This document shows, one piece after another, positions 2,208-51,210 of a DNA stretch of 64,000 bases (position 1 is its first letter; each line of letters opens with the position of its first letter). The notes beneath the pieces are model-generated. The model ran no database searches. It saw nothing but the letters and a program-made list of their open reading frames with translations, and was not told the DNA's origin. The translations under genes were made by a program, and so were the position numbers. Source of the DNA: Brachionus plicatilis (lineage: Eukaryota; Rotifera; Eurotatoria; Ploima; Brachionidae); the NCBI GenBank assembly GCA_010279815.1, contig QEOQ01000508.1:2480457-2544456 (forward strand), in the 5' to 3' direction.

Positions 2208-5200
2208 ATGAGCGAGGTATTAGATTTAGATAAATTTTTTTCAACAGAGACACGATCATTTGATAACAAAAATTACCAATTTTTGAATGCTTCTAAAAAA
2301 ATTAACGTAGCAAACTATAGCCAAAAAGTTAGCCAGAATGAGCTCGTGAACCTTGAAGCTTTAGTTGAATCAAATGACTTCAGGGACGCGGATTTGTTCG
2401 ACTTTTCGAACATTAAAACAGCAACTGATTTACTTTTTTGGAAGTTTGGACAAACTCTGTTTAAGGATGATATCTTCAAGAAAAAAAATTCTGAGTATTT
2501 TCTTCTAAACGGATGCCCAAATATATCAATTTGGTCACTGCACTATTTGAATAAAATTTTTGAAAAAAATCTTCTGAGCATACCTTCAATAAAAGTGAAT
2601 ATATTTTTATTTTTTTTAATGAAAATTTTACTCTCTAAATACTTCACAAGTTAAACGAAAGATTTTCATGTTGTGAAAGAATATCAGAAAGTCTTTTGGT
2701 TTCTTTAAATTATGACCCAAGAAATTTAATAAAACATGGTAAGAAATTTTTTTTTTAGGTTAAAAAAATCACAATTTTTGATTTTAGAGCAAATTTTTGA
2801 TCAAGCAAAATGTGTTATAATTAACTCAGATAATTTTAATCCAAATTTAATAGAAAAAATTAGCAACTCACAAGCAATTTTGCCCGCAGAAAATGAGCTA
2901 AATCATTTTTTTAAATATGGTAGATTGAAAAATGGCAAAAACAAATTTTTAAATCTATATGAATGCTCTGAAGTAAGAGCTTAATTTTTTAGTTAAAATT
3001 TTTAAAAAGTTTTTTTTTCAGTCATTCGCTGAATATTTTATAAGCGAAAGAAATTCAATTGTTCTTACTTTCGATGCTAGTGAAGAAATAGAAAAAAATG
3101 CAAAATCCATTTTATCTCGTCTTTTGGTTGTTTTAGCAAAAAATATTCTCCCTTCTAGCATTTTGGTACTTGGTGTTGGAAAAGATGATGACAATATTAA
3201 TGACAAAATTCGTAGTGCTTTATTTGAAAAACTCAAAAGTGTTAAAGATGAGATTAAATCTGATCAAGACATCTACTTGACGTAAGTTATCGTAATTTTT
3301 ATGTCTTTAAGTGCGTTAAGTTTTATTATTTTGAACATTTTGCATTAAGTTTTATAATAATTTTTAGAAAATTAAATATTGATTAAAAATTGAAAAATTT
3401 TTAAATAAAAAAAATTTTTGATACTAAATTGTGAAAATAACTATAAAATAATAATATATAAAATAATAAATTAAAAGTAAAAAACATTATCTTAAGTAAA
3501 CCATTAATTTGACATTGTGAATTTTAGAACAAAAAAAAGAAAAGATTTTCGTTCCTATAATTATTTTAATTATAAAAAATTGAGACATAGTGCAATATAA
3601 TTTGTTGAAATTTTTTTTTAAATTTATTTTTTAATCTTTAGCTTTAATTTATTAAAAAAGGAAGAATTTTTGTTAAATTTGTATTTGAATTTTACAATAT
3701 CCTTCTTTACTTGACCACGAAAATTTCTAATTTAAAACTTGAAGTTCGAATATTTACAATAAAATTAAATTAAATTTTGATTGTGAGTAAAATAATTTGA
3801 TTTTTAATTGCAGCTGTAGCTAAATAAAAAAGATTCGATAATTGCTTGATTCATAAATAAATTAGTTGTCGAAAATCGCCTTTTTAATCTTATTTGAATA
3901 TTGTTAAAATCAGCTGAGTGTGAAGCAACATATCTCAAAAGAAATAAATAACTAAATTTATAGTTAATTAACAAATACTCGAGTTTGTGGCAGAGGAAGC
4001 ATGGGAGGCAGAGGTGGTAAATTTGTAATCAGAGGCGGGCGCAGGACAAGACTTTGTTTAACTTGATATTTTGTTTAGTTATTTATTTTAATAATTCTTA
4101 ACTTAAAATTTGTATTTCAAAGGACCAATGTATCAATTTCATTAAAAAAAATTTATTAATTTCGTATAAGATTTGAAATAATCTTCAATTATATTTATCT
4201 ACATTTAAAAAAAATCGGATTATTTATATATATTTTGGTAAAAAATTTACTATAAAAAACAGATTTTAAATGAAAAATTGGACAACTTTTTGTATTATTC
4301 AATTTTACAATTATCGTTTTTTGATAATTCTTTTGTGCTAATTAAATGTTTTATTCATTCATTCAAGTTTTCATTAAAAAAAAATTACGATTTTTCAACT
4401 ATTCTACTATTCCATAATTCAACTTTTAAATTTCTTAAACTCATTCAACTATTCAATAATTAAGAAAATTACAAATAAATCAAAACTATTTTAACAAGAT
4501 TTTTATAAAAAATATTTTAAGACCAAAAACTATTATTTATTAAGAATAAATATAAATATCCGGATTTTTAGCACTGAAACATCTAATTAAAATTAATACA
4601 AAATATGAGGTATTTTTGTAATTTATTTTTATAAATCAATGAGCAATTATTTATTAAAAAAAATTTAGCAGTATTTAAGAAATGATGGGTTAAAAATTAA
4701 TATCCTATAATTATTTTAATTATAGGTATTGTTATTAAATTTGTTAAAAAATGTTAAAAAAATTAAATGATATTCAATTTTCATAATCTAATCCATTATC
4801 TAGGATTTTGTTAAAATAAATCTAATTTCAAAATAACATTAGTTATTATTAATATTAGTTGAATTAGTTTTAAAAATTGAGTAATAGAATAAAAGAATAA
4901 TTGAAAAATTGAATAGTTGACTTGAAGATATTTAAGTTGTATAATACAAATTATTATCCATGAATGTTTTAAATACCTGGCCACATAGTAATACATATTA
5001 TTGTAAAAAACACCATTTTCTCAGCTACAATTACATGCAATACAATTCAAAAGCCTACTATTATTCCATATAATTGTGTGTGAAGGTTTACAATTGGTAT
5101 TTCTTCTAATTTAAACCTAACAGCATAGCCAAACATATGTGTTAATACATTATTTTTCATTAAATAGCAGCAAATGCATGAACTTTTTTATAAATTTTTC

Positions 5201-8200
5201 TTCTCGAAATAATTTTTTCCAATTTCTTATCAAAAATTTAAAATTTTTGTATCCGTCTTTTAGTCTTGTATTTTTTATTACTATTAAATAAATAATTTTG
5301 GGTCTCCCCTTTTAAATTTTCAAGTACATTCTTCAAAAATGTGTAATTAAATTGAAAAAAGTGACGAGTTACTTAGTGTTTTAGAAATTTATCAATTTTA
5401 GCCCTTTAAAATAAAAGAATTTTCATTTTTCTCATTTTTCACTTAAAAGTCCAATTCTTTTTTAGAATTTTCATAAATGACGTACCAAAATGAAATAAAA
5501 TAGGCAACCAATACTCATTTCTTTTTGATTTAAAAAAGATAGAAATCTAGAAAAGTTGATTAATAAGTACCTTAAAGAACTTAAAGAACTCCAGCTATGG
5601 CTTTTCAAATGGAAAATGAAAATGTCTGTTGAAAATTCATGCCACATGATCTTTGCAAAAATCAAATATCTCTCAAAAAGCCTAAACTCCAAAATTATGA
5701 ATTTATTTTTATTTAAAGGAACTTTAGCTCGTCACAGATAAACAAATAAAGGGTAAGGATTAAAATACCATAAAAAGAGTGAATCAAAAAATAGAACACA
5801 TAAAAATAAAAAATGCTAATCAAAATTATAAAAAGATTAACCAACACATAAATTTTTTGTATAACAATTGAAAAAGATTAAAAACCATAAAAACTAAATT
5901 TAATTTTTTTTTTATCTGTTAAAAACACATATATTTGAAATTTTTGAAGGCTACATATACGTTAAAACTAGCAGCTAAAAAAGAAATAGAGAATATTAGT
6001 CTAAAAGAAAAAAAAGATAATTATATAAAGAAACACATTATATAAAAAATAATGTGTTTCTTTATATTATATTAATATTACTTAATATAATATAAAGAAA
6101 CTTTATATTACTTAATTTTTTTTTTTTAAATTAATTTTATGTGTTTGTAACATTTTATTAGAATCATTTTATGTGGTTGTAATCTTTTTTGATAAATAAA
6201 TATAAGTTTATGTGTCGTTCACATTATTTAAGTTTTTTAATCCTTTTTTATGGTATTTTAATCCTCACTCACAAATAAATAATAAACTTTTGTTCTAATA
6301 TTCACAATTTTATAAATTCAATCTTCGATATCTAAATCAATATGATTCTTTTCTAAAAAATTTACACAATTTTAAATTTTTAAATTTTTTTTTCAAAATT
6401 TATTAATTATGGACATTTAAATTTTGTTTTTTTTATTTTCTTCAAGAAACTTTTCAAAATTGACTCTTGAGCTTCAAATTGAGCTGAGCGAGCAAATAAA
6501 TTTAGCCGAGCAAATCGATTTAATAGTGAATATTCTAAATTTTGCCATAATTGATCCAAAAAACAATGAGATTGGGGAACAATTCATTAGTAGCAGGATA
6601 AAACCAAAAGATGAAGAAATAATTGAAAAATTATCTGAATATGCTTCTATGATGCAAGAGTCCTTAGATTCCATCCGTAAGAGTGACATAGCTGAGATAA
6701 AATCATTCAAAGCACCACCAGCCGCTGTACAATCTATAGCCGAGGCTTTATGCTATTTGTTTTCAAAACCACCAAATTTTCAGAATTTTATCAAGCTTGT
6801 TAACACAACAGATTTTATCAGCCAGCTAAAATATTTTGATTTAGAGTCGGTAAACGACTATAAATTGACACAAATTAAAAAATATATCCAAATGGAAGAT
6901 TTTATTCCAGAATATGTTGGAAAAATTTCCAAAGCTTCAGCCATTTTGTGCAACTGGATTATATATGTATATAAATACTGTTCAACAAAAGCATCAGTAA
7001 GTTTGAAATTTTTATTTGAAATTTTTTAAAATAAAAAAAAATTTAGCTACAAATTTTTTCATCTAACCTTGATTTGGAATCAAAATCAGCTTCAACTCAT
7101 GGAACACTGAGCACTTATTTATTCGATAGCTCTTTTTTTATGTTCAAATGGTTTTTGTACTATGGAGATAAATATGAAGAAACAGAAATAGAAGTAGATG
7201 AGCTGATTACTAAAACATTAAATTTCGAAAATCGATACATTTTAACAATTGACGATCTAGTTCAAATATTTTTATCTAATAAAAAGCTAAAAGAATTTCA
7301 ATCGAAGTATTTTGACCAACTTTTTTTAAGATATGCAAGAGCTGAGAGTGCCCGAGGGCGATTTTTGTTTGATGAAAAATCTAAATTTTTGATCACTGAC
7401 CAGAGTTGGTTCAAAAATATAGTCGATGTTTTATCCAAAGGAAAGACAAACGATCCAACATTAGATAACATTTTTGGTGCCAATGTTCCGATATGGAATC
7501 AAATTGAGTTGAAAGAGAAATTAAAAAATTTATGTCCTACTGATACAATTTTTGATAATTTAATTTTATTTTTGAAAGAAAATAATTTTATAATTGTAAT
7601 CAACAAAGAAAAAATAATTCCATTATTTCATTTGAGCAAAATTCAAACAGCTTCTTTTGTAAGTATTCAAAAAATTGTGACCGGGTTTTAGAAACATTTT
7701 TTTAAAAAATATTTTCAATCAAATTTAAAAATGACTATTTTTATAACGTGAATTCCTTTAAATTAAGTTCATTATGATATAAAAGTCAAATAACATTTTG
7801 GACTAAAAATTAGATTTAAGAAAGTTATGATAATAATCTTTACTCGAAAAAGAATCAAATTCAATACTTATTTTATGATCTGATGTTATATTTTTTCTTG
7901 AAACAAAATTATGTTTTTGCTTTAAATGTTTAAAAAACTTTCATAACCAGGGATCTTGATGATCAGAATAATTATTGGCTTATAATAGTGTTATGTAAAA
8001 TATTTTTGGTTAATTTTGGAAGAAAAAATTTTAATGATGAATGTTTTTACTTTTAAAATGTTAAATTTATTTAATTTTTTGGTGAAAGTTCAATCGTAGA
8101 ATTTTTTTCGTAAAAAATTTTAATGGAAAAAATATGGAAAAAATAATTCAAGGAAAATTTTTCATAGATTTTTTTTTCAGAACAATAGTCTTTCGTTATT

Positions 8201-11200
8201 TAAATAATTGACAAAATATTTAAAATTTTGGGCAATGTGAAATTTTAGTAAAAAAATTACAATAAAAAAAAAGAAAAATGTAAAAAAAAATTTTAATTGT
8301 ACAAAAATGGTTCTACGAACAATATAAATTTGTACAAACGTATTCTAATCTCTGCAAAAACTTTGCAATTATATGTAAAATGAAAATCATCAAAAAATAA
8401 TTGATTAAAAAATGCAACAAATTGCAAAATTTTTGCAGAGATTAGAAGGTGTTTGCAGAATATTGTACTATTTAAAGAACCATTTTGTACGATTAAAAAT
8501 AAATAAAATTTTTTTCTTTGTAATTTTTGCAAAGATAATTGAGTCTCCTAACACTCATTCAATTTCTGATGAACATAATTTCTCAATAAAACACAAAAAT
8601 CTGCGGTTAGCTTACCAGTCCCATCAAGTGGTTTTGATAGGACTCGAGTGTTTGGTAACATAATAGCGCCAATTTATTTTGAAACGAGATTTATGGTTTT
8701 TCAATTCTGAAACCCGAGTTTAAAAATTAAAATTTTATCTTTTAAAAAAACTAAGGACTGGGATGAGGAATGCGAAGATTTAGAGTACAAAATGGTATGG
8801 CAATTGTTTTCTCCATTAACCTTCAACGCTTTTTCTGAATTCATCTGCATGAATTTTGACACTGAAACATGTCTGAAATTGTGGAAGAATGGTCTTTTAT
8901 ATGAAGATGCTTATTTTCATGTCTTAGTAAAATGTTCTGACAGAGAAAGTAAAAATAAAAACTAGATAAGAATTTTTTGAATTTTATTAATTTATTAATT
9001 TTTAGTTTCTTTGAGTGTTAGAATGATGGATGTAGAAAAAAATATTAATATAATATCTTTTGATGACAAATCATATTTAAGTCACTTAAGAGTACTTTAC
9101 ATGAATTTTTATTTGTGTATAAAGAACTTGCTAACTAAATTTCATGTCGCCAAAAAAGTAAATTTTTACACTTATAATTTTTAACAAATTTTAAAATTTC
9201 CTTAAGATCAAATTTAAAGAGACTTATCATCCTTTGGAATTTGAAAATAATGAAATAAAAATTTTGACACAAAATGATACAGGTATAGGTTATTTTAAAG
9301 AAAATAAATCTTCTACTTTTTAATTTTTAAATAAGACGACCTGATTAGTCTAAACGAAACGCTGTGCCAGAACGATTTTCATTTTTTTCATGAAATTATT
9401 GAGATATGTAGCCACAATTTTAAATTTTATGCATCCAGTAATTTAAAATGTTCCGATTGCTATCTAGACTTGGAAAGACAAAAAATTCTTAAAAAGACTT
9501 ATTTTGAAATGTACAAAAAATTCATAAAAAGTGATTTTATTCTATGGCAAAGTTTTGATAAAGATCTTTCCAACATTGGACTTAATTTTTATATACCCGA
9601 AACTAATGATAAGAAAATTCTTCAAGATTATGAAATTTTTGTTATAAAATTCTCAGATTACGAGCTATTGAAAAAAAACAACATTTTTTTAATATTTCTA
9701 GAGTAAGTAAATTAAAACGAATATTAAAAAAAAAACTTTAAAAAAATAAAAAAGTACTAATGATGACCGGGAGAAAGTATTTATATCATTATTTGATCTG
9801 AATTACCATCAGATAAACAGATCAACAGATCATCAATTTATTAAAGTAAAACTAAGAGGTGATGACACTTTAAATGCGAAAATAAAATTTGGAGATGAAA
9901 TAAGAATTGAATCTGTTAAAAAAGTAAATTTTTAAATTAAAAGTGAAAAATTGAATAATTTTAAAATTTTCTAAGAACGATGATCTAAACTCAATCACTG
10001 TGTTTCTAAATGGAGTGACCATGTTTGAAATTGAATATAGTTCTTTAAATCTTGTTCCGATATTGGGAATTCCTCAATCAGAAGAGTCATACGATTTTTC
10101 TAAAATTGTTGAAAACAGCAATTCAACTAAGAACCATTTCAAAAAGAACGATAATTACAGGTATTTTTCAAATAATTATTTTTTATCAAATTTAATTAGT
10201 TTTGATCAAAAAAAAATATTATAAATTTGTTCAGAACTAAATAAAAAAGATTAGTTAAGTAACAAAATAATTTGTTTATGTGAAAAACATAGTTAATGTT
10301 TCATTCTTAAACATTTTTGTTCATAGATAAAAATATATATGTTAAATATGTAAAGGCACTTGCCGATTGATACGATGAGTAATAAAAAATTTGTTGATCT
10401 TACTAATTGTAGTGAAAAAGGCTGGAAATTGGCTTCAAGTTACCTTTATGGTGGAAAGTCAGTAATAAAGCGTCTTGGTGATAGTAAGAGTTTCATAATA
10501 AATTTTAAGTATACTAAGAATTCTTTTGCAGCTAAAGCTAAAGTTTGTCGAAAGGCAAAAGCAAAAACTATTTAGAAAAGAAGAAGGAAACTCAATATTT
10601 TTACTTTTTTATTTTATTTATTTAATTAAATTTTAAGTTCCATGGACAAATTGAAATAAAATATAATACAAAAAAAAATTGTAGAATAATTTAACTAAAA
10701 ATTAAATATCTATTTTACAATCAAAAAGAAAAAAAAGATCTATCATACAGGGGTTGTGAAGTTCATTTCAATACGATCGTTTCAATTCAGAAAAATTTGA
10801 ATAACTTTTTTACTTTAAGGAATTGAATTTAGCTCTGTAAAATTCTTAATGTTTAAGCAACTTTGCTAAATCCGAAAAGATATGTCTGCACTTTCTATTA
10901 GAACACTTTTTAATGGCGTGCAAAATGCCGAAAATTGCAGAGTATTTTGCAGACCTATTTTATTGCATTAAGTAAATTTGCTTATAATTAAGCATTTTAT
11001 AGAACTAAATTATCTCTTTTAGAAAAAAAGTTATTCAAAGTTTTCTGAATTTACAAGATCGAATTGTAACGAACTTCACAACCCCTATCATACAGCTTAT
11101 TTTACAATTACATAAAAAGCAGAAAAAAAAATAAAAAAAAAATAAATCAATTAAATTTACCATATTCCTTCGTTCGATATTGCAGCCTCATAAAACTTTG

Positions 11201-13379
11201 GCGCAGGCAATAAATACCATCTCGCCTATGTTAAAAAATTCTTAACTTACACTGCATGCGTCAAAATTGTATTTCGAGTCTTGGATCACGTTAAAAATAA
11301 AGTTTTTTAATTTAATGCAGCATTAACAATAGAATTTCTGTCATAAATAAAAAATTTTTTTTTGAATTTTGCATTTGGTGCAGGATCCCAAATTAAACAC
11401 AAAAAAAAAATTAGAAATGAATATTTTTGTTATTCGATTTAAAAAAAAAATACAAAAATTTGATTCTTGACGCGCCATTATTTTTTGAAAAAAATTGTCT
11501 TGAAAAATTAATAAAAATTTAATTTTTAAACTCTATTGTTAATCCTGCATTAAATTAAAAAAACTTTATTTTTAACATGATCCAAAACTCGAAATACAAC
11601 TTTGACGCATGCGGTGTAAGTTAAGAATTTTTTAAACATGGACAAGATGGTATTTATTGCCTGCGCCAAAGTTGTATTTCAGATTGTGAAGCTGCAATAT
11701 CGAACGAAGGAGTATGGTAAATGTTTTTACCTAATTAATTGTAATTGACCATTAAAAAAATATCAAGCAAAAAGGAATAAAAATTGATGATTATAGAGAA
11801 ACAATTTATTCAGACGATAAAAAATTATTTGAGTCATAAACTACTTATTGTTTAACAATATTTTTGACAAAAAGTAATTATTTCTGTAATAGGGTAATAT
11901 TTTCTCTTTTAGAAAAGATGATCTATCTTATTTGATTCATCACCGACTGGAGGCCAGAGATCGTAAGAATGTGCATTTAATTGCCCCTGCATCAATAAGT
12001 AACTTTGAGTATTAAAAATATTGATATTATTCTTATTTTTGTAAAAGGGGAAGTAAATGGAAACTCTGTTTTGGTCCATTTTGATGGATGGAGTGATAAT
12101 TTTAATTATTGGGCTGATATAAATGACCTTGATTTTAGACCAGTTGGTTGGGCTGAATATCAAAAAGAGCAGACAACTCACAGAACCATTGAAGACGATT
12201 ATAAAAATATCAAATTCGATCCGCCTAAAGGTTTTATTATAAAAAAATTAGGAAAAAAAATTAATTTTTCTTTTAATTCTAGATTATTATAAAAACAATG
12301 CAAAAATGTTCACTTGGGAGGACTATTTAAGCGAGAACGATCTAAAAGCAGTTCCATTTGATACATTTACTCAAGTAAATTATTTTTTTTTAAATTTAAA
12401 AAGTATTAATGTTTTTTATTTTTTGCTCAGGAACAAAAAAGTGGAATGTTAAAATGTAATTTTAAAGGGGATAAAAATATGATTATTCAAAAGTCATGCA
12501 CTGAATTTCCAAGAATCCAAGCTAAGGTTGCTGATTTTGATAATTATCTAATGCAAAATGCGGCTTTGATCATGGAAAATAAAGTTAAAATGACCTGTGG
12601 TCAAGCAAGCTCCCAAATTAGAGGAATCCTTTTGTTACCTAGAAATTTTGATGATCTTAAGTTTCGGAATAAAAAAACTATGTTTAAAAACATCCATTTG
12701 CATATGTGTTGTATGACCAGACTAAATGATGATTTAAATGTTTATTCCCACTTGTTAAATACGGAAGGTATTCCAATAACTGATAAATTGATTGATTCAA
12801 ATGAACTAACTGTTATATTATTGTCTTCATATTTGGTGTTAAATTCAAAGGTAAGTTTTATTTATTTTCTAACAAAAAAATTGTCAACAAAGGCAATGTA
12901 AAATTTTAGTACAAAAATTAAGAACTTTATAATTTTTTTTCTAATTGTACAAAAATGGTTCTGCAAAAAGTACAATAATGTACAAAATTGTACAAACGAA
13001 TTATAAGCTCTGCAAAAACTCTGCAATTTTGTGTAAAATGCACACCATCAAAAAATACTTGATTAAACTATGCAATAAATTGCAGAGTTTTTGCAGAGCT
13101 TGAAATTCTATGGTACAATTTGTACATTATTGTACTTTTTGCAGAACAATTTTTGCACAATTAGAAAAAAAATTATAGAGTTTTTGATTTTTCTACTGTA
13201 ATTTTTTGTACTAAAATTTCACATTGCCTCAACATAAACAGCTTTTCTTTCCGAATATGAACTATAGATTATCAGCTCTTCCTCCTCGGAAAAAAAAGGA
13301 TCTGATTAAACCTTCAGCCCAACTAAGACGTAGCAAAGAAAATAAAAAAAAAAACTTTGGTAGTCTCTCAAATCATTAG
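2208..13379 (+). CDS. Roco-type (COR) protein with dynein-stalk-like segment and MBT domain, 17 exons
   Basis: Exons read as 2208-2594, 2651-2738, 2788-2972, 3022-3281, 6447-6996, 7047-7658, 8756-8948, 9006-9157, 9207-9282, 9336-9702, 9755-9923, 9976-10160, 11913-11998, 12048-12230, 12283-12374, 12431-12850 and 13242-13379. All borders are GT-AG, all phases agree, and the total is about 1380 aa. Residues 1-306 are weakly Roc-like (LVLGVGKDD resembles a G4 strand), with no P-loop. Residues about 380-485 resemble a dynein heavy-chain stalk tip (EIKSFKAPPAAV, later KISKASAILCNW). Residues about 610-1070 look like COR, including a winged-helix-like part, PLTFNAFSEF, WKNGLLY and a CSDC motif. Residues about 1075-1195 are an MBT repeat (LEARDRKNVHLIAPASI, VHFDGWSDNFNYW, RPVGWAEY, FTWEDYL). 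The C-terminus is basic (PPRKKK). The family role would be scaffold or signalling; GTPase activity is doubtful. The start ATG and the donor GTTTTA of exon 14 are the weakest calls. Confidence 0.72.
3515..3720. repeat. MITE family B, diverged copy
   Basis: Inverted ends begin near GACATTGTGAATTTTAGAAC and finish near TTTGAATTTTACAATATCC. The right arm matches the left arm of the better copy at 17485-17825 (CAAATACAAATTNAACAAAA type sequence). It lies in the 3.2-kb intron 4 of the Roco-type gene. Confidence 0.5.
3967..4066 (+). other. GC-richer patch encoding an RGG-like string, in an intron
   Basis: One forward frame reads NTRVCGRGSMGGRGG, then a second RGG cluster and a stop. Base composition differs sharply from the surrounding AT-rich intron. 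It could be the 3' end of a decayed retrocopy of an RNA-binding protein or a chance low-complexity patch. No splice sites fit the host gene's phase, so it is not called as an exon. Confidence 0.3.
4275..4925. repeat. Possible old foldback element
   Basis: Words such as TTCAACTATTCAAT near 4442-4458 face TTGAATAGTTGA near 4909-4920, and ATTCAATTTTACAATTA faces similar words on the right. The arms are degenerate and no target duplication was found. Short frames inside are repeats of F, N, L and I codons and are not genes. Confidence 0.3.
5524..5741 (+). pseudogene. Non-LTR retrotransposon reverse-transcriptase fragment
   Basis: A forward frame reads INKYLKELKELQLWLFKWKM followed by KMSVENSCHMIFAK. 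This is the pattern of the RT region just after the catalytic core in many non-LTR elements (a run of Leu/Lys, then W-x-x-x-W-x-M, then a Cys and an I/F-F segment). Only about 65 residues survive, without the YxDD box. It sits in intron 4 of the host gene, directly left of a foldback element. Assignment rests on pattern memory only. Confidence 0.5.
5751..6270. mobile_element. Foldback/MITE element with ACAAATAAA target duplication
   Basis: The left end GGGTAAGGATTAAAATACC is inverted at the right end (GGTATTTTAATCCTCACTC). ACAAATAAA flanks both ends (5742-5750 and 6271-6279). Sub-terminal words such as AACACATAAA recur inverted, and a strong internal hairpin lies at about 6025-6070 (AAGAAACACATTAT against ATAATGTGTTTCTT). 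No coding capacity. The 8-9-bp duplication suits hAT or Mutator-like mobilisation. Confidence 0.75.
8231..8536. mobile_element. MITE family A, right end decayed
   Basis: Starts GGCAATGTGAAATTTTAGTA and shares internal words (ATTGTACAAAAATGGTTCT, TCTGCAAAAACT, GATTAAA.TATGCAA type) with the intact copy at 12892-13228. The right terminal repeat is no longer recognisable. It lies in intron 6 of the Roco-type gene. Confidence 0.6.
10360..10575 (+). pseudogene. Intronic remnant ORF of a dispersed repeat
   Basis: A 71-codon frame (NKKFVDLTNCSEKGWKLASS ... then a Lys/Ala-rich end) opens at a TTG and sits inside intron 12 of the Roco-type gene. Its last 40 bp are part of the dispersed repeat also present at 1711. 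I do not recognise the protein. It looks like a fragment of a transposon- or retrocopy-derived ORF and has no splice signals that fit the host gene. Confidence 0.35.
10751..11084. mobile_element. MITE with 11-bp target-site duplication
   Basis: Terminal inverted repeats of about 28 bp begin GGGTTGTGAAGTTC on the left and end GAACTTCACAACCC on the right. The direct duplication CTATCATACAG flanks it exactly (10740-10750 and 11085-11095). The interior is non-coding and itself foldback (TGCAAAATGC, GCAGAGTATTTTGCAGACC). A 9-11-bp duplication is the habit of Mutator-like elements, so this is probably a non-autonomous MULE-type MITE. Confidence 0.88.
11159..11718. mobile_element. Foldback element with arms of about 180 bp
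   Basis: Left arm 11159-11340 starts ACCATATTCCTTCGTTCGAT. Right arm about 11530-11718 ends ATCGAACGAAGGAGTATGGT. Arms match at roughly nine bases in ten (for example GCATGCGTCAAAATTGTATT against its inverse). The same terminal sequence occurs in the small element at 50576-50667, so the two share a family. No ORF. No clean target duplication was identified. Confidence 0.8.
12892..13228. mobile_element. MITE family A, intact copy, abutting the last splice acceptor
   Basis: Ends GGCAATGTAAAATTTTAGTA and TACTAAAATTTCACATTGCC are inverted. Flanks TCAACAAA (12884-12891) and TCAACATA (13229-13236) form a near-perfect 8-bp duplication. It fills most of intron 16 and ends 13 bp before the first base of the last exon, so the host acceptor (AAACAG) sits within or beside the duplicated target. 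Confidence 0.8.
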
Positions 13380-14277
13380 CTGTAGTTTTAATTTTTACAT
13401 TGAAAAAGAAATTTAAAATAATGATTTTATTTTTTAAGTGAAAGTCCTGACTCGAATTTTATAATTTTTGAAACAAGTCAAGATTTGTCATTTTTTTCTT
13501 AAATTTTCATACTTTTTTCCTGATTTTTATACAAGTCTGAGTCAGACAGATTAATTTCGTTTCCTCCGTTAGACCCTATTAGTTTCGATGAGTTTTTTTT
13601 AAATTAAAGCTAGTAAATTTCTTTTTAAATGCTGAGAAATATTTTGATGATAAATTCTTTTATTATCTGAGTTTAAATTATTAAAATTATCAAAATTTAA
13701 AATTTTTTAAAAGTTTTTATTTAAAATATTTTTAGATAAAATCGATTTCATACTTTTTTAGTAAATATAAAAGCATTATTTATTTTAATTTAAAGTCTTT
13801 TAAAAAAAATTTTAAATCGTTATTCAAAATAAAAGTAATTTTAATCTATTATTTGTAAATTAAAAATAATATAGTTGTCACAAAACTTTATTTGAATGTA
13901 ATTTAATGCAATCTACAAATGCAATTAAAAAAAAATCATTAATTAATAAATAATTTTTTACAGTTAAAAAATAAGAAATCAATTATAAATATAATTTTTA
14001 AAATGAAAATTTAATTAATTTTTAATTTTATTTTAAATTTTTACTAATTTTCTTGACTGCTTTTTTAGACCTTTCTCTTCTTAATTGATGTGACATGTTT
14101 CAGCTGGAAAGGAATCCAAAAATTCTTCACTTAATGACTTTTCTACTTTTTAACCAAATGCAATACCTGGAATGAAACACTATTGCAACACCTTGGCAAT
14201 ACTAGTTTTTAATAAAAGACATAATTTTACTGCTAATTTTTCAATAAATTAATATTTAAAAAAATTTTTTCTTAAAG
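13380..14277. other. Spacer between the two Roco-type genes
   Basis: About 900 bp, mostly AT-rich. A first exon of gene 2 should be here or further left but no clear one is visible. A frame from an acceptor-like TTTCAG at 14101 reads LERNPKILHLMTFLLFNQMQ before a stop, with an in-frame ATG at about 14129, but no good donor follows. Promoter elements were not recognised. Confidence 0.4.
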
Positions 14278-17200
14278 TTTAAGACAATTATTCCAAATAA
14301 TTGCAAAATTTTCGAAAACCAAGACTCAAACTTGGACGAATTACAAGTAACATCAATTATTCGTAAATATTTACAAAACTTGTACCAATATTTCATCCTT
14401 TTCATCAACAAAAATCAAAGCTCAACTCAAAATTTTGATTTTAACCTAAAGAAATATTTTAATCTAATCTCAGAAGAAAAGCAAAGTTCCAAAGTTTACA
14501 GCTTTCAAAAGAGCCCTGGTCTTTTGGGAAGATGCTACTTTTGCTATTTGGCAGATCACAAGTACAATCAATCAAATGATCGTTCATTTTCAATAAAGAA
14601 AAAATTAAATGAATATGCCAAATTTTGTTTGCGATTTGGTATTATTGGACTTCAAAATTCATTCAAATTAGACTCAAATTTTGCGTCCAAATACCGCAAT
14701 GTTGTTGGTATGGTTTTGATAAACGTTCCCCTTCGGATTGAAGATGAAAATTTTTTCAAGCATTTTGATCACTTGGTTCATCTGAAATTATGGTACAATC
14801 ATTTAAATTATATACCACCTTCAATTTTTGAAATGGAAAAGCTGAAAATTTTTCTCTACCAGAACCGATTGAATGAAGCGAACTTAAATTTCAAAAATAT
14901 GTCAAGTCTGGAAATGTTAGAGATCGAAAACCTAGAAATAAAGGATGCCAACATGATGGTTCAAATGCCTGACAGAATTGAAACAATTCGAATCTCTCGG
15001 TCATCTTTTGGTCATTTTTTTCTCAATCTAAACCCAGAGAATATGATTAATTTAAAAATGAGCGGAATTCCGCTTTTTGACATGGATAAATATAGTAGAA
15101 ATAATTCATTAATAAGCAAAGAGAACTTTACCAAAGAAATAGGCAAATCAAAATTTTTAAGTTTTGATTTTATTGAAAAATTATTTTGCCACTTCGACGC
15201 TAATTCGAATGGCTATTTGGAATCAGAGGAAATTATCAAAATAAATGCGTTTTTGTTTAAAAAATTTCTTCGCATAGGCCCTGATCTTCCCAAGATAATT
15301 TTTCAAATGACAAATTTATTAACTTTGGACTTGAGTTTTCAGGCAATTACTCAAATTCCGGATGAAATTAAAATGCTGAAAAAATTGCATACACTGATAC
15401 TTAGTAATTGTGTACTATTGGAAAATATAAGTCCAGAATTGGCAAGCTTGCCTTTAAACAAGCTTGATTTGAACAATTGTCTTTCTTTGGTGACACCTCC
15501 GCCAGAAATTGTGCGAAGAGGCATGGATTCTGTCTTGACTTATCTAAAGCGCATGATTTCAGGCTATGTCAAGCTCAAACGAACAAAACTTATGCTGGTC
15601 GGTCTTGGTCAAGCGGGAAAGACAACTCTTTTAAAATCTTTGAAAGGAAATCAAGATGAATTGAGTGAAGTAACAGATGGTATTAATATCGATGATTGGC
15701 AAGTTGATTTGGATGATGGATCTACTTTAACATTTTCAATGTGGGATTTTGCAGGGCAAAGCGTTTATTACAATACACATCAGTTTTTTTTGACGTCCCG
15801 GGGTGTTTATTTATTAGTTTGGAATGTCAGATTGGGCAGTGAATATGCTGGTTTAGAGTTTTGGTTAAGCAGCATTAGTTGTCATGCTCCAGGTGCTCCT
15901 ATTTTTGTTGTTGGTACTCACATTGATCAAGTAATTTTATTTTATTTTTTTATTTTTTAATTATTAATAATTTCTTTATTACCTTAGTTGCTTTTTTTAA
16001 GATTAGATTTATATTATTTATTTTTTGTCACAATGACAATTTTGAAAGGCAGCTCATTGATTTGTTTAAGTCTTCGAAAATTATACTTGAAAGAAAAAAA
16101 ATTAAACCTCACATAAAAACCAAGTATTAAAATTAGAAGATGTCACTCAATTTTTTCCAGGTTTTAGTACCCTCTCTCTAAAATGTCATATTCCCCAGTG
16201 GTAGACATAGTGAATTTTTGAACAATAAAAAACAAATAAATTAAAATAATCTAAATTTGATGGATTTTCTCTAAATTTTTAAATTGCCTATTAAAAAATA
16301 AAATTAATTTTTATAAATTTTTCATCAAGGTTTCAAAATATTCTTTGGACCAAGAGGATTTAAAATCAAGATACAAAAACATTGTGGGATTTTTTTTTGT
16401 ATCGAGCTACACCAAAGTTGGCATTCAAGATCTAAAGCAAAAATTAATCACGACAACATTACAAGAAAAATATATAGGAGAAAAAATTCCGGTAAATATT
16501 TTTTTTGTTGATTAATTATAAAAGAGTTTAATTTTTGAATATTAAAACGTTGGTTAATTCAATTTAGGATTATCTTTAATTTACGAAAATTTAAAATTAA
16601 TATTTGCAGTGCTTTTTACATTTTGTAATAATGTAAGTGAAGATTAGTTGGCAATTGTGCTGACGAAACTAATCCCAACATCAAGAAAAATAATATTTTA
16701 TTTCTAAGTAATTATGGATCATGTCCAGAATGTGATCAGTGATCAATGATCACATATTTTGGGATCAAAAAAGCCTCTAATTTATGAAAAAATAAAAATA
16801 AATTTTTTTTTGGTGATCAGGAAATTTTTTAAAAAATATATTAAACTTTATTACCAATTTTCAAAATAAAATAAAACAAAATCTAAATTATCCATTGTGT
16901 TTTTTTGACATGTGTAACACCTTTTCATTTTTCATAAATTCACCACAAATGCTTTATTCTACCGGGTTTGACTATTTGCTTAATGCTTTTTTTGCAGATA
17001 ATTTAGCTGCTTTGGACGATTAGATTAAAAAAATTTAAAAAAATATGATACTCAGACAAATTACGGAAAAAATCATAAGATTACAAAGTTAAGCACTTTT
17101 AGGTAAAAGGCGCATTTTTACGTAAAATTATCAAAAAAAAACAGACTATAACATCACTGTATATTAACCAACTAATAAGAAATTCAAAAAACATTTTGAA

Positions 17201-20200
17201 TAAAATCGATTATTTAAAATTGTCAAATCTTGGAAAATTTATTCAATCCTACCTTAAAAATAGTTCACATTCTTACCCAAAATTATCAAAGTTTATAATA
17301 AATAATTTAAAAAAGCTAAAAATTTTGGAATAATTTTAAAATTGATTTTTAAAAAATTTTATCAAAAATTGTCAGTTTTTTGACCGGAATGGAATTTGCA
17401 TAGTCTGACAAAAATTTATATAATATTACGTAATCTTACGTAAGATTATAAACTTCATTAATTTTTAAAACCATGCAAAATAAGGTATTGTGAATTTCAA
17501 ATACAAATTGAACAAAAATTCTTCTTTTTTGATAAATTAAAATTAGAGATTATAAAATTCTTTAAAAAAATATTGCAATGTGCTACATCATACTTTGTTG
17601 CTACTCTTTAGTAAAACAAATCAATAATCAATTTAAATCTTTTTAGTGTTTTATTTATTGTCTTATTTTAACCTTAAAAGAAAAATTATTTAAGGTAAAA
17701 AAGGTTCAACAAAGTATGTTGCACTAAATTGCAGTATTTTTTATAAACATTTTTATTAACTTTAATTTTAATTTATCAAAAAAAGAATGAATTTTTGTTT
17801 AATATTTTTTGAAATTCACAATACCGAAAAATCATTGTGTATTTTTTTGAAAATGAGAATTTCAAAAAGCATAGTTAAATTAGCATCAGTCATCATAGAA
17901 AATTAAAAAAACCTGTGATTATTAAGTTAGTTGTAAGATTTTTTTTTTATCTTAAAAAATAAAAGAAGATATTGTCTTTAGTTAAAAAAAACTTTATTTA
18001 AAATAAAAGAATGGTGCAAAAGTTATAGTTAAAATAAAAAAGATGTTTAATTAACGTTTTAACTCTTACATTGGGGTATTTCCGTAAATTTCATAGATTT
18101 AAGCAATTAAAATACAAAAAAAGTATAAGAAAATAAATGTGTCCCATTTTAAAACAAAATTAGTCTATTTAGAACACTTTTTTGAACAAAAAAATTCCAC
18201 AGTTAAATCAAAGCCTCTTAAAAAAAATGATTTTTAATGACATAAGTCAAAAATTTAGTTATATAAGACTGAAAAATTAAAAATTCGAATTTTTTCTCAA
18301 AAACAGCTGCTAGTAAAAGGCAAATATCTTGGCAAGTAGGGATCATATAAAAAAAAGCTCTTCATTAGTTTGTGCGTATTGAGTAGATCTATCTACTGAT
18401 ATACAATATTAGACATATTCACCTGCCAACGAAGCTCGGCTCTCTTTTTTGTGAAAAAAAAGGTATAAAAGTAAAAAAAAAACAGGTAGATTAAGAATAT
18501 TTTTTATTTTTAAATCAAGAATAATAAAATTTACGGCATTTAAAATCAGAAAATGAAAAAAAAAATATACAAATCGGAGTATTTTTGGGAGAAAAAAGGG
18601 TTTTTAATGTTGCTTTGCATCAAAAAACGCCTTTTTTCAAATTTAAATAACTTTTTACCTGAAATAGGTAGAAACATAAAAAAACCACCAAACATGGGTT
18701 ATCATACATGGGGAACACGAATATGTAAAAAAATTTAGAATCCCAGAGTAGTGACGTAGTTTTGCCTTATTTAAATGCACCTTATTTAAAAGGAAAAAAT
18801 TTTTTTCAAAAAAATGTGATAGTCATTCAAAGAAGAATTCACGGTTTTACCCCATTAACGGTGCAACTCTGAATTACAATATATTTTATATAAATTTGCT
18901 TGACAAAATATGAAAAGCTATCTCTGAGCATCGAGCCCAAATCGACAAACTTTTCTTTCTTTCTTTAATTGATATTCTAATTAAAAAAAAATTAAATCTG
19001 CTCAACAAAAAGTTTTAGAGAATAGCTTCTGATAGACAAAGCAAAATATTTATTCAAAATATCAACAGTAAAGATAAAATCACATAAAAATTGAATTTTT
19101 TTAGGAAGCTTGGCTAAATTTTGAGAAGAGTGTGAGAGAAAAGTCTAAAAAAGAGCCCATAATTAATAAAGACAAGGCAAAGCAGTTGGCTGAAAAAAAT
19201 GGAATATATAATGAGCAAGAATTTGGTCAAGTAGTTAAATTTTTGAATGACCTCGGCTCGCTGCAGTATTTTGAAAATCAGAGTTTAAGAAATAAAATAG
19301 TGATAAACCCCCAATGGATTGTGGACGCATTTGCCAAAATAGTCTCCATAAAAGAAACCTGTATCCAAGACGGAAAATTCACTCACGACAAAATAGATGA
19401 AATATGGAAGGAGTATGATAAAAATTTGCATGAATGGATGCTCAAACTAACAGAAGAATTTGATCTTACATTCCCGATTTCAGAAAAAAATATGAGCATA
19501 GTGCCATGTCTATTGCCGGACGCTGAGCCAAAGTTCGAATGGCCCGAAATTGATCCCAAATATCCGGTTAAAATCAAACAATTTAAAGTAAATTATAGAT
19601 TTGATTATTTGCCCATTGGGTTGTTCAATCGAATCCAAGTTAGACTTTTCCAATATGGTGACAATTCAATCATTTGGAAAAAAGGCTCTTTGTTGAAAAA
19701 AAATTCCCATTTAGCTTTGTTAAATCAGACCAAAAACTCTCTTTCAATTGAAGTCAAAGTCCTGGGTGTAAAGCCGGAAAACATTGTCCTGGTTATTCAC
19801 GAAGCAATTGAAACACTCATTAATGATTCTTTTAATGGACTCAAGTATGATTTCAGCTTTCCATGTCCTGACTGTGTTGAGTCTCAGTCAAGTGATCCGC
19901 ACTTGTTCAGCTCTACTCTGCTCAAAAGAGCTAGTGAAATGAAAGCGCCTTTTTTGCAGTGTGCCAAAGGTTTTCATGTGGTGTCAATTGAGGAACTGAT
20001 GGCCATAATGCCTGTGGATGATTCCAACAACTTGGACCTGAATCTTGAATATTCGATCAGGGACTTGAGAAATTTAAAGGACAATTTCAAATATGACATA
20101 ATGTTTTGGTTTTGTGGACAAGACACAGATCTTGATCCAGACAAGTCCATTAGTCCTTTAAATGTGATCAAGGCCATCGAGTCCCAAGGATACAAAATTT

Positions 20201-20994
20201 GGTTCAGTAAAACTCCATCTCATGAAAAACTTGACAAGATAACAAGTGTTATTAAGCAGTCCAAATTGGTGATCTTCGGAGTGTCGGACAATTTTGCTTC
20301 AGATTCAAGAAGTGTTCAAATTTTTGAATTATCCAAAAATTTGATCAAAAAAACCTATCTATTGATAGAGTTTGGCCTACTGGGCGCTAGAAGTTGGCTT
20401 CAAAATCCGCTTTTTGCCTCTGCGTGTGCCGACTTTCGGGTCATAATGCAGGACCCCAAGAGATATGCTACGAAAATAGCTGACACTTTTGAATCAATCG
20501 AGAAAATTGTGCAAGTTGATCCGAAAAAAAAAGAGGAAAAACATCCAGATGTGTTTGTCAGCTATTGTTGGGCCAATTCTCATGAGGCTATTAAAAAAGG
20601 CTCAAAAGGCACAAAAAAAAGCCTGGGCGCACTCGATCCAAGAATTTTGGTGAAATTTTTTGCCGACAATGGAATAAATGCATGGCTTGATGTTGACAAT
20701 TTGGACTCGACAACTCAAATGTTTGGTGAGATAACCAAAGGAATGAACTTGGCAAAAGTAATTGTGGCCTGTGTTTCGGATGAGTACGTCGAGTCACAAA
20801 ATTGTAAACTAGAATTTAGATTTGCTCACATATCACTCAAACTGCCCATCATAAAAGCAGTAGTTGGTCTTGGCAATGAATGGCGCAAAAATGAAATCGC
20901 GTTTTTGGGCAGCAATTATCCCGAAGTTAATTTTCAATATGAACTAAAAGGTAATTTTAAAATCATATCTGACAAAATTAGTGCCATTTTATGA
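14278..20994 (+). CDS. LRR - EF-hand - Roc - COR - TIR-like - TIR protein (Roco family), N-terminus incomplete
   Basis: Exons 14278-15930, 16330-16491 and 19105-20994 join in phase 0 (about 1234 aa). There is no ATG at the 5' exon start, so an upstream exon is missing. Leucine-rich repeats span residues about 140-260 and 341-415. Between them is a canonical EF-hand loop (DANSNGYLESEE, 15196-15231). Roc follows: P-loop GLGQAGKTT (15601-15627), switch WDFAGQ (15742-15759), VVGTHID, and FFFVSS in exon 2. COR starts at EAWLNFEKSV and includes IVINPQWIVDAF and a PCPDC motif. A degenerate TIR-like domain (YDIMFWFCGQD, about 935-1075) precedes a fuller TIR (DVFVSYCW, about 1087-1234) whose CKLEFRFA keeps the Glu corresponding to the catalytic position of NAD-cleaving TIRs. 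Expected role: GTP-switched, perhaps calcium-tuned, cytosolic signalling or immune sensor. The last intron (2.6 kb) holds a MITE. Confidence 0.85.
17485..17825. mobile_element. MITE family B, good copy
   Basis: Left end GGTATTGTGAATTTCAAA and right end TTTGAAATTCACAATACC are perfect inverses. The similarity continues inward for about 60 bp (ACAAAAATTCTTCTTTTTTGA inverted at 17770-17810), with a second inner inverted pair around CAACAAAGTATG. Non-coding. Located in the last intron of gene 2. Confidence 0.8.
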
Positions 20995-22484
20995 AGTATT
21001 ACCACTGTTGGTCATAAGTCTAAGTCAAATAGAAAAGGTCAGACTTGGCTTGGGCGTTTTATTTTTTTAAGTTATAAAATTCATGAGCAAAATAATAAAA
21101 GACATTTAAGAAGTTTTGCCCACTCGCCAAAGTTACTTTTTTAAATATGTAAAATAAAATGATAGAAAAAATTTTTTAAAAAATTTTTTAAAAAATTTTT
21201 TTTTTATTGAAAAATCGAAATAATTAAATAAATCGATTAAAATAATAAAAATAATATGTCTGTCGACGCGTTTCGGCAAGCTTATGCCTTCTTCAGGACT
21301 ATTTTTAATTTCAAAATTATTTCTCTATATTTATAAATTGGTAAAATAAATTTCATAAATTTTTTTTTATTAATTTTATGAGTTGGCCTAAAGTCAAAGT
21401 TATTACATTTTAATATATTTTATTCCAAGTCAAAGTTAAACTTTAAATTTTAATTTTATTAGTCAATGTATGATTTGACTTAGACTTGGAGTAAAATATT
21501 TTTAAATGTTAAAGTTAAACTTTAACTAGGGCTTAAAATTTTGATTTATTATAAAATAAATAAATTAAAGTAAAGAAATACATATTTGTGAATAAGTTTA
21601 TTTTGACTTATTAAATAAAAAACGTAGAAAAAATCAATATTCTTTTAATTTTAATTGAAAATATAAATTGAGAAACGTAAATTAATTCCAAAATAAAAAT
21701 TTAAAAGGTCAAAGTCCACTTGGACTTTGACTTTTGCAGACTTTTAAATAAATTTTTGACTTTTGACCAACTCTGAATTTTGTTTTAAAAAGTCGATTAA
21801 AAATCTTTTGCTGATTTATAAGTTAAGTTTTGAGTTTTCTTTTTACCAATTCCGAATTTTAATAAGAAATGATAGAACTTCAAAAGAATGATTAATTTTT
21901 ATAAAATTTTTTTTTTTAAATATTCTTCTTTTTCTTTAGAAATAAGTAAACTTTATTAATCAAATACTATCTATTTGTACTATCATTAGTTATATGAAAA
22001 TATAGAGAAAAAAATTTTAAAATCTTTTTAAAAGATTTATAGACAAGTTTTATTTATTAGAAAAAGTGGAATATTTTTATTTGAAAAATTTAGGCTTCGA
22101 TTTTACAATCACAAAAATACAATAATTTTTTAATTTTATTACCTTGATTATTTAATATACATCCTATTTTAATATGCTATTTAAAAATAAATTCATGGAT
22201 TAAAAAATAACATTGTATAAAAGAACGTAAAACAAATCAAAAATTAATTTGTTGACTTCAATAAATTATAAAATTAAAATATTAAGAAACTTTTTAAATA
22301 TATTAAATATATACAGCGGATGATTAGAAGGCTATATTAAATTAATATAAATATTATAAAATGATTCTAATTCTTGATAAATTTGAATCTTTATTTTTAA
22401 ATTTAATTAAAAAACTAAATCCATTAATTTTATTACTGAAACATTAATTTTAAAAATTAATTTAAAAAAAAAAATTTTTTTAAG
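20995..22484. other. Intron or intergenic region after the TIR exon
   Basis: No ORF of note. It contains the hammerhead ribozyme at 21256-21302, low-complexity A/T runs at about 21165-21215, and short arrays of GTCAAAGT / ACTTTGAC words at 21035-21060, 21385-21545 and 21705-21770. These resemble the ends of the foldback element at 47210-47664. If the alternative donor at 20951 is used, the whole stretch is an intron leading to the exon at 22485. Confidence 0.5.
21256..21302 (-). ncRNA. Hammerhead ribozyme, Penelope-element type
   Basis: Read on the minus strand the segment gives CTGAAGA, then a stem (GGCA...TGCC closing a TAAGCT loop), then GAAA, then CGCGTC, then GACAGAC. This is the hammerhead core (CUGANGA ... 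GAAA ... UC before the cleavage site), with a very short stem III. Stem I would form from AGTC before the core and GAC after the cleavage point. Such minimal hammerheads are known from Penelope-like retroelements. No reverse-transcriptase or GIY-YIG ORF is nearby, so it is probably an orphan element end. One extra A sits between CTGAAGA and the GGC stem. Confidence 0.72.
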
Positions 22485-23350
22485 AATCATTGTCAACACT
22501 TCTGAAACATGTTAAAATTGAGCTTTCCAAAATCAACGAGAAAAAAATTGATAAAAAATTTGAGAAAAGCATATCAATTGATGAATCAAATAATTATGCC
22601 TTTCAAGAGTTATATGAATTGACCCAGAGAAAGTTTTTGCGTCAATTGATTCAATTTTCAGAAAAAAATCCAACCATTCGGTCTTATCCTCGACTTTTCT
22701 TTTTAGACCTCATAGATCAAAAGAGATTTGAAAAATTCAAGTACAAAAAAAATGCAAATGAAAAAAATGAGAAAAACGATAACGAAGAAGAAGAAAATGT
22801 AGAGCGAAGATCATCATCAGAATTAGAGTTTTCAGAGCCGAAAAATTTTGTTATATGTATTAGACCTATGTGTGAACATGAAGAATGTTGGCATTTTTCT
22901 AATTTTTTAGTTCTGTATCCAAAAATTTTAACTCCCAATTGCACTTATCTTCTTAGAATGATGACTATCTTACGAAATGGGAGCTATTCGAATGAATTTG
23001 GAATTCTTTTTACAGAACAAGGTAAAAAGTTATTTGATGAAATAAAAGAAAAACTCAGCGGAGATTCAACCGAAATTAGCGATTCATACAGCAGTTTAAG
23101 AAATTATTTTATTGATAAATATGAAGAAGAAGATTTTTACTTTGTCGAACAAAATTCTAACGAGAATTTTTTTAGCTTAAACAAATGTGAGTTGAAAAAT
23201 GGAAAAATTTTGTGGCTATGCCCAGAACATGCTGAAAAGAGTGGTGGCAAAATAATTTCAGATCAAAAAAGTTCCTTGCAGAATCAATTTGAGCAAGAAA
23301 AAAGTAAATTAATCTTAGAATTAGATCAAGTTGAGATCGACATTTTTTAA
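22485..23350 (+). CDS. Terminal coding exon with CEHEECWH domain, probable alternative 3' end of the Roco gene
   Basis: An open frame of 288 codons follows an acceptor (TTTTTTAAG at 22476-22484). The first in-frame ATG lies about 125 codons in, directly before CEHEECWH, so the block needs an upstream exon. A donor-like AAAAG|GTAATT at 20951 inside gene 2's last exon leaves phase 1, exactly what this exon requires; splicing there would replace the last 15 residues of the TIR with this 288-residue tail (about 1508 aa in all). Visible features: a basic helix-rich start, SYPRLFFLDLI, an acidic linker of N and E, FVICIRPMCEHEECWH, then YLLRMMTILRNG. Similar 'PRLF ... CEH..WH ... YL...L' tails occur, as I recall, in large invertebrate LRR/GTPase proteins. 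Function unknown. Confidence 0.7.
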
Positions 23351-39440: not shown

Positions 39441-43190
<3,750 letters not shown>

Positions 43191-50710: not shown

Positions 50711-51209
50711 CAGTGGCGTATTCAGGATTTGTTAAGAGGTATGGCGAAGGATGACTCAAATCAAATGACTGTACCGGGGTGTTGGGGGACGGTGCAAAAA
50801 ATACAAAAATTTATTTTATTACGAAAATTATTATTAATTGGGTTATTGAATGTAAATAGATAGAATTAAATGAAAAAAATAACAATTTATAAAGCATTTA
50901 GTTTAAACAAGTTTTTCAATCTTTGATTGATGAAAAAATATCTACAATACTATCTAAATTTAAAAGCTCTAGTTCTTCTTTTTCAATATTTAAAATTGCT
51001 AAACTAGAAAGACGTTCTTGTAAGATTGTGTTTCTAATGCAAGTCTTTAGTCTTTTTAAACATGCAAATGAACGTTCAACGGAAGCTGATGAAATTGGTA
51101 TAGTTAAATATATCTGAAATAGTTTAGAAATCGTTGGAAACAATTTTATTAGATTATTTTCTATAAATATTTCTTTTAACTTATACAGTGGGTTATTCAA
51201 AAACGACAT
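50711..51209 (-). pseudogene. hAT transposase remnant (C-terminal dimerisation domain) with its terminal end
   Basis: The minus-strand frame 51209-50916 encodes the hAT dimerisation signature: LTIPISSASVERSFACLKRL, then KTCIRNTILQERLSSLAIL. Left of it, CAGTGGCGTATTCAGGATTT at 50711 is a typical hAT terminal tip, in the position expected for the 3' end. Everything upstream of the domain is missing, replaced by the GC-rich inverted repeat at 51211. No intact transposase remains. Confidence 0.8.
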
Positions 51210-51210
51210 A

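Follow-up and report, generated by a model that had tools for sequence, protein, structure and literature searches.

Members of the Roco family, which includes the Parkinson's protein LRRK2, share an LRR-Roc-COR core, and a passage in a study of brown algae gives up to forty Roco domain combinations for animals (PMC11378527). LRRK2 associates with microtubules, as stated in one part of PMC9758056, which makes the engagement of microtubules by Roco proteins an active question. Of two putative receptors described for Aplysia that have ROC and COR domains, one carries an Mbt repeat and the other an EF-hand, according to a section of PMC9334734 (2022) that also lists Aplysia Roco-TIR proteins as immune candidates. 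LRR, ROC, COR and TIR domains and an Mbt repeat are given there for the putative receptor Aplysia californica LOC101848126.

The window analysed here, a stretch of 64,000 nucleotides from Brachionus plicatilis (C1:2480457-2544456), carries a gene whose predicted protein, W, has the same LRR-Roc-COR core. The order of its domains is a degenerate Roc without a P-loop (Roc1), a dynein microtubule-binding domain, a first COR (COR1), an unassigned region, an MBT domain and another unassigned region, followed in the second half by LRRs with an EF-hand-like stretch, an intact Roc2, COR2, two TIR-like domains and a C-terminal region. These predicted domains and their order are well supported. W is probably the product of a single 20-exon gene and a giant two-module Roco GTPase, with a mechanism of TIR signalling linked to microtubules and methyl-lysine that we infer from its domains. 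Compared with LRRK2, W has TIR domains in place of the kinase, a tandem Roc-COR in which the first Roc is dead, and a dynein-derived domain. We know of no dynein domain in LRRK2. Unlike axonemal dynein heavy chains (DNAH6 type), with which it has the microtubule-binding domain in common, W lacks the AAA+ motor and linker, and the predicted model of its exon 5 has no long stalk coiled coil. With Aplysia LOC101848126 the comparison is one by description only, and neither a dynein domain nor a second Roc-COR is mentioned in the section of PMC9334734 describing that receptor. LRR-Roc-COR-TIR proteins of molluscs and a nemertean (P0011, P0013, P0016, P0017, P0019-P0021) are 36-46% identical to parts of the C-terminal half of W, but their precomputed Pfam lists contain no microtubule-binding (MT) domain.

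In the protein database, a dynein domain and COR1 were found together only in P0002, a Brachionus plicatilis protein of 1849 aa with the automatic name 'serine threonine-kinase pats1'. P0002 follows a W-like order from its N-terminus to Roc2, its MBT is degenerate, and as predicted it stops inside the gene. The 'kinase' in its name is rejected, since its precomputed Pfam list includes no such domain. The searches behind this are insensitive: one of them, with 7986 candidates scored, returned P0002 alone and missed P0009, which has COR1-B and the middle region in common with W, as well as P0007 and P0010, which begin near the MBT tail. Candidates in the protein database search were relatives of up to 3236 aa. 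In the open-licence literature, neither a Roco protein with a dynein domain nor the domain order of W was found reported, and searches there for Roco with MBT, Brachionus pats1 and rotifer Roco gave no report of a W-type order. The sequence-only reading, which knew of no described protein with such an order, is thus right about the dynein domain as far as open-licence papers go, but goes too far for the remainder, since P0002 is public and an MBT-Roco-TIR protein is reported from Aplysia. The new element is the dynein domain between the dead Roc and its COR; MBT with LRR-ROC-COR-TIR is already reported in Aplysia.

The sequence-only reading had proposed a 17-exon gene at 2208-13379. When this model is rebuilt to the base, all 16 of its introns have GT-AG borders and consistent phases, exactly as claimed, and the product is 1380 aa long with 0 internal stops. 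P0002, one of five matches to it among 7995 candidates scored, aligns to 93% of the model with 44% identity and extends beyond its end into an LRR-Roc region at window 14275-15933. A splice-aware protein-to-DNA alignment, written for this analysis, was used on the window and the other loci. With P0002 as the query, 14 of the 15 introns in 2208-12850 are placed exactly. The exon 8/9 border is misplaced, and exon 1 is split by an extra intron at a point where P0002 has no residues; this intron is not present in paralogue A (from aa 23) or C (from aa 40), where the paralogue support for exon 1 begins. The same alignment connects 12850 to 14278 and bypasses 13242-13379. P0008, likewise from Brachionus plicatilis and 99.1% identical to the W gene over 672 residues, extends the gene through exons 18-20 and so sets its end at 23350. 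The first residues of P0008 are translated from an intron, at 16183-16209; the start of this public annotation, at the end of Roc2, is therefore a prediction artefact, and the gene is cut short in it. Exons 1-16 of the proposed gene (2208-12850) therefore stand, whereas its exon 17 and 3' end do not, exon 16 being joined to 14278-15930. The product of about 1380 aa is replaced by a full protein of 2843 aa, of which the 1380-aa model is the N-terminal half, the whole being an LRR-Roc-COR-TIR protein. The predicted gene is about twice as long as first modelled (Table 1).

Table 1. Features of the gene for protein W, in window positions; '~' marks approximate borders
Feature	Position	Strand	Basis or remark
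Whole gene W	2208..23350	+	20 exons, 19 GT-AG introns, 2843 aa; ATG 2208, TAA 23348-23350
Exon 1, N-terminal region, aa 1-129	2208..2594	+	Single exon in A from aa 23, in C from aa 40
Exon 2	2651..2738	+	Rebuilt model, P0002 spliced alignment
Exon 3, degenerate Roc1 begins at aa ~160	2788..2972	+	Rebuilt model, P0002 alignment, profile comparison
Exon 4, Roc1 continued	3022..3281	+	Rebuilt model, P0002 alignment, profile comparison
Exon 5, end of Roc1 and dynein-type microtubule-binding domain	6447..6996	+	Pfam, PDB, predicted fold
Pfam dynein stretch inside exon 5, aa 361-484	~6607-6978	+	PF12777
Exon 6, COR-A-like part of COR1	7047..7658	+	P0002 alignment, profile comparison
Exon 7, COR-B-like part of COR1	8756..8948	+	P0002 alignment, profile comparison
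Exon 8, COR-B-like part of COR1	9006..9157	+	Model, paralogues, profiles; P0002 alignment puts end at 9145
Exon 9	9207..9282	+	Model, paralogues; P0002 alignment puts start at 9222
Exon 10, cysteine-containing region without Pfam or PDB assignment	9336..9702	+	P0002 alignment
Exon 11	9755..9923	+	Rebuilt model, P0002 alignment
Exon 12	9976..10160	+	Rebuilt model, P0002 alignment
Intron 12	10161..11912	+	Missing in A, B, C; multi-copy repeat at 11155-11722
Exon 13, start of MBT domain	11913..11998	+	Pfam, P0002 alignment
Exon 14, MBT core, FDGW..F..YW aromatic-cage residues	12048..12230	+	Pfam, alignment
Exon 15, segment after MBT core resembling arm of MBT repeats	12283..12374	+	P0002 alignment, comparison
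Exon 16, no known fold, spliced to 14278	12431..12850	+	P0002 alignment
Exon 17 of earlier model, unsupported as part of gene	13242..13379	+	P0002 alignment, peptide search
Exon 17 as revised: LRRs, EF-hand-like stretch, intact Roc2	14278..15930	+	P0002 alignment, Pfam
EF-hand-like stretch, below cut-off	~15172-15240	+	Pfam
Intact Roc2, portion in exon 17	~15586-15927	+	Pfam
Exon 18, end of Roc2	16330..16491	+	Paralogues, P0008
Exon 19, COR2 and two TIR-like domains	19105..20950	+	Pfam, P0008
COR-A in exon 19	~19105-19515	+	Pfam
COR-B in exon 19	~19579-20001	+	Pfam
TIR-like 1 in exon 19	~20161-20337	+	Pfam
TIR-like 2 in exon 19	~20650-20832	+	Pfam
Exon 20, conserved C-terminal region without domain family	22485..23350	+	P0008, paralogues

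Three paralogues, A (C1:1864137-1879037), B (C1:1888424-1901155) and C (C65:476954-497861), were modelled with the W protein as the query, or with P0002 and the W protein for B, which favours similar borders; the models of A and C lack part of the N-terminus. Two introns of B are absent from W, one of which traces the exon 1 split of P0002 and is discounted, as are the first two small predicted exons of C, taken as forced. With positions matched by hand from the alignment tables, 18 of the 19 introns of W recur at an equivalent position and phase in each of the three paralogues. The sole exception is intron 12, whose two sides lie within one exon of 271 (A), 262 (B) or 271 (C) bases. Since A, B and C carry both sides in one exon, separate transcripts for the parts before 10160 and after 11913 are very unlikely, as the sequence-only reading had held, and doubt over this intron has been dropped. 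Related copies of the repeat within intron 12 are found on many contigs.

The junction between the two halves of the protein is the other place where the locus could be divided, into a dynein-domain/COR/MBT gene ending at 13379 and a separate LRR-Roc-COR-TIR gene downstream. The stretch 13242-13379 has legal splice sites and a stop, intron 16 measures 1427 bp, and P0008 starts only at the end of Roc2; as set out above, this start is an artefact derived from an intron. P0002, even though it is itself a predicted protein, connects both halves, and the phase-0 junction between them is common to W, A, B and C. In A, the junction intron is only 53 bp long, not a multiple of three, and contains in-frame stops, so that it leaves no space for a promoter. 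The peptide of 13242-13379 has no convincing match among 12 loci or 46 proteins (best other E 0.49), and P0002 splices past it, so it is rejected as a terminal exon; it lies 3' of a high-copy hairpin repeat. Two adjacent genes are very improbable on this evidence, and a single gene is preferred. The repeat, at 12900-13205 in intron 16, is a near-palindromic, hairpin-forming, MITE-like element of ~306 bp with 82% inverted identity, and of its 1186 candidate matches 40 were scored, which include 39 other full-length places at 89-92% identity.

The C-terminal half of W has clear family assignments. Roc2 (Pfam E 1.1e-20) has an intact P-loop, GLGQAGKT, and is directly followed by COR2, with COR-A at E 3.5e-31 and COR-B at E 2.4e-28. 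The TIR families PF13676 (E 3.5e-11) and PF01582 (E 1.7e-7) each match two stretches; for the second TIR-like domain, the PDB search gave chance hits only. LRRs are found by Pfam, while the EF-hand, at E 7.4e-4, is below the curated cut-off, and Pfam finds no kinase family in W. The second half has 41 matches among 7983 candidates scored, from rotifers, molluscs, a nemertean, other animals and a choanoflagellate. Judged by its sequence, this module has the look of a functional switch that ends in an effector.

By sequence, the first half of the protein is a second, degenerate Roco module. Pfam gives no COR match in the 17-exon model or in the COR1 region of four family members, COR1 alone has no Roco match in the PDB search, and profiles of four paralogues each for COR1 and COR2 are not significantly similar (best 2.6%). 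Richer profiles were then built from seven sequences for COR1 and six for Roc1 and compared with profiles of up to 38 Roc-COR sequences; P0002, D and P0009 had been added to the COR1 side and another 34 Roc-COR sequences to the opposite side. With these, hhalign matches COR1 to COR2 at 95.9% over 201 columns, the best of 60 column shuffles reaching 11.1%, and Roc1 to Roc2 at 64.9% with a score of 35.5, against at most 0.67% and a score of at most 16.7 for 60 column shuffles. The COR reading is confirmed by this profile comparison, and with it the Roco-like backbone named in the sequence-only reading. The P-loop motif GxxxxGK[ST] is absent from the first 400 residues in six of six sequences. 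Given the Roc1 and COR1 profile matches and the missing P-loop, the dynein domain is flanked by a degenerate Roc on one side and the COR of that Roc on the other. Two control comparisons, Roc1 with the MTBD profile (99%) and the middle region with MBT (50%), are not evidence, because the cut-outs overlap in sequence, and the structure predicted for exon 6 (pLDDT 40) was set aside. COR1-B and the middle region align with P0009 of B. calyciflorus at E 1.1e-22 (set of 44 proteins), MBT being skipped; the COR1-like N-terminus of P0009 has no Pfam COR match. The N-terminus of P0011 from the snail Bulinus is COR-B-like at Pfam E 0.033, below the cut-off. Since P0009 aligns in this way and P0011 has a COR-B-like start, the tandem Roc-COR module may be older than the genus Brachionus.

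The dynein-like segment seen in the sequence-only reading is real. PF12777, the dynein stalk/microtubule-binding family, matches it above the curated cut-off (E 6.5e-13), and 75 distinct PDB sequences match at E <= 0.01, the best at 1.8e-17 and human DNAH6 chains ranking next (E 1.6e-16). The predicted exon 5 model has block means of pLDDT 88-96 over residues 61-180, and dynein stalks and microtubule-binding domains head the list of its Foldseek matches. Since Pfam finds no AAA+ motor or linker family in it, W is not a dynein, and the label is rejected. Six tubulin contacts in H1, H3 and H6 are described for yeast dynein in a part of PMC7042235, and five of them were mapped to human positions 3306, 3308, 3336, 3344 and 3384, the H3 pair by equivalents given in that paper and the others by renumbering here. 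The residues at these five positions are E, K, Q, T, K in W, E, R, Q, S, K in C, E, K, Q, T, N in A, S, K, Q, S, E in B and K, K, S, S, E in D. The H1 and H6 positions are thus kept in W (E/K, K) and C (E/R, K), while H6 is N, E and E in A, B and D, and the two H3 salt-bridge positions are conserved in none of the five paralogues. In a comparison of five non-human dyneins, made without loci L015, L018 and L020, both H3 positions are likewise non-basic in three (P0005, L014, L016), and H6 is Ser in two (L014, L019), so H6 is not a sharp test. Loss of the H3 contacts in all five copies and of the H6 contact in three, together with the missing coiled-coil stalk, would fit a domain that is a mere structural spacer between Roc1 and COR1 and binds microtubules in no member of the family. 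Against such a role, the H1 and H6 charges are preserved in W and C, and the H3 loss is matched in those three dyneins; a spacer is conceivable, though we lean against it, and microtubule binding by some copies is the reading kept here.

The MBT domain of the sequence-only reading is equally real, with a Pfam match above the curated cut-off (E 1.3e-15, aa 1086-1143). There is one repeat only, rather than the tandem repeats of Polycomb-type readers. At the positions that we take to form the aromatic cage, alignment indicates a complete cage in W, with Phe for Tyr, a partly kept one in C and A, and a lost one in B. The Pfam match is strong in A (E 1.5e-20) and C (E 6.6e-20) and degenerate in B (E 0.035, below cut-off); no MBT was found in D, and locus E has an MBT-like stretch by profile (92.6%) with no Pfam match. 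Since contacts are lost in some copies and MBT is degenerate in B and was not found in D, neither microtubule nor methyl-lysine binding is conserved throughout the family. In profile comparisons with 30 shuffles, one of three molluscan homologues (P0013) is clearly above the shuffles in score, yet at only 9.4%, while the MBT likeness of P0011 and P0020/P0021 is at shuffle level; the N-termini of P0013, P0020 and P0009 have no Pfam COR or MBT. The middle and C-terminal regions of W match no Pfam family. A likeness of aa 835-1075 to SPRY was an impression by eye, for which Pfam and PDB give nothing convincing.

In the whole assembly (102.9 Mb, 173 contigs), nine COR-A matches fall in eight loci, five of which, W, A, B, C and D, have the dynein-type domain. 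In D, this domain (C4:1654320) is below the Pfam cut-off (E 0.029) and matches the W protein at E 5.9e-15. Order and distance are the grounds for assigning the COR-A matches at C4:1666085-1666556 to D. On contigs C54 and C59 and near C1:4709583, PF12777 has no match at E <= 0.1, locus E (C54) being covered in part. P0002 is the orthologue of B, with 96.8% identity over 1342 residues and 92.8-100% in nine of nine regions, among them the dynein domain (98.6%) and the degenerate MBT (100%). The D locus (C4:1652748-1664049; L017, L056, L047) retains the dynein-type domain and COR1; its small predicted exons at locus positions 4514-6390 were forced by the query (P0002, W) and ignored, and P0027 seems to be its public counterpart. 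A and B are tandem paralogues ~20 kb apart. Their DNA is 94.6% identical over 956 bp (C1:1868057-1869011, C1:1890200-1891148; L032, L033), covering a part of COR1 including introns, whereas other alignable stretches are at ~73-75%, apart from 613-623 bp near the TIR end at 88.8%. From the sequences, the high-identity stretch looks like gene conversion.

How such a protein might work can be outlined from its domains. The dead N-terminal Roc-COR could serve the C-terminal one as a partner, or a brake, within the same chain, and the dynein domain and the MBT, in copies with an intact cage, would place W on microtubules or methylated lysines. A ligand or damage sensed by the LRRs would lead to GTP exchange on Roc2, a COR-mediated rearrangement would then cluster the TIR domains, and the clustered TIR domains would set off signalling of an innate-immune or stress type. 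Both the tethering to microtubules and the immune-type signalling are what we infer from this arrangement. In a more specific form, put forward only tentatively and unlikely to be correct in full, a Roco dimer would be hard-wired in one chain, the dead Roc-COR pairing with the live one, and the dynein domain in the hinge of the dead Roc-COR would couple binding to microtubules, and through MBT to methyl-lysine, to the GTPase switch and TIR output. Variation in the ligand-contact residues between paralogues could also mean that the dynein and MBT domains are integrated decoys, host-like bait in an immune sensor for pathogen factors aimed at dynein, tubulin or chromatin; the binding function of such decoys would be free to decay. 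The amplified family, the apparent partial gene conversion of A and B, the TIR-like effector ends and the listing of Roco-TIR proteins in the cited section on Aplysia (PMC9334734) would all suit bait of this kind. W, however, retains the key residues of both domains apart from H3, there is no known pathogen ligand, and the MBT-Roco link in a mollusc would equally fit a housekeeping role, so that decoys are rather improbable, and tethering coupled to TIR signalling remains our preferred outline.

W connects the rotifer family with the MBT-Roco-TIR protein described for a mollusc in PMC9334734. Evolution appears to have put a dynein microtubule-binding domain into a Roc-COR hinge, with five paralogues in one genome, so that the W family offers a testable variant within the family of LRRK2. 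Since two of the paralogues keep more tubulin-contact residues than the other three, they provide natural variants for asking if contact with microtubules gates the Roc-COR switch, and the degenerate Roc-COR in the same chain gives an opportunity to examine intramolecular pairing. The public gene models here are cut short or named as kinases.

Elsewhere in the window, minus-strand ORFs at 39441-43190 presumably belong to a single PAPS synthase gene, for which they would encode ATP sulfurylase and APS kinase, and we take a minus-strand ORF at 50916-51227 to resemble the C-terminal end of a hAT-type transposase. The GC content of 62001-64000 is 0.43, compared with 0.21-0.34 elsewhere in the window; within this high-GC stretch a long minus-strand ORF (61639-63999, 786 aa), which runs off the window, presumably encodes an A-type ABC transporter. 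The ORF at 30787-32265, of 492 aa, contains about four repeats of ~120 aa.
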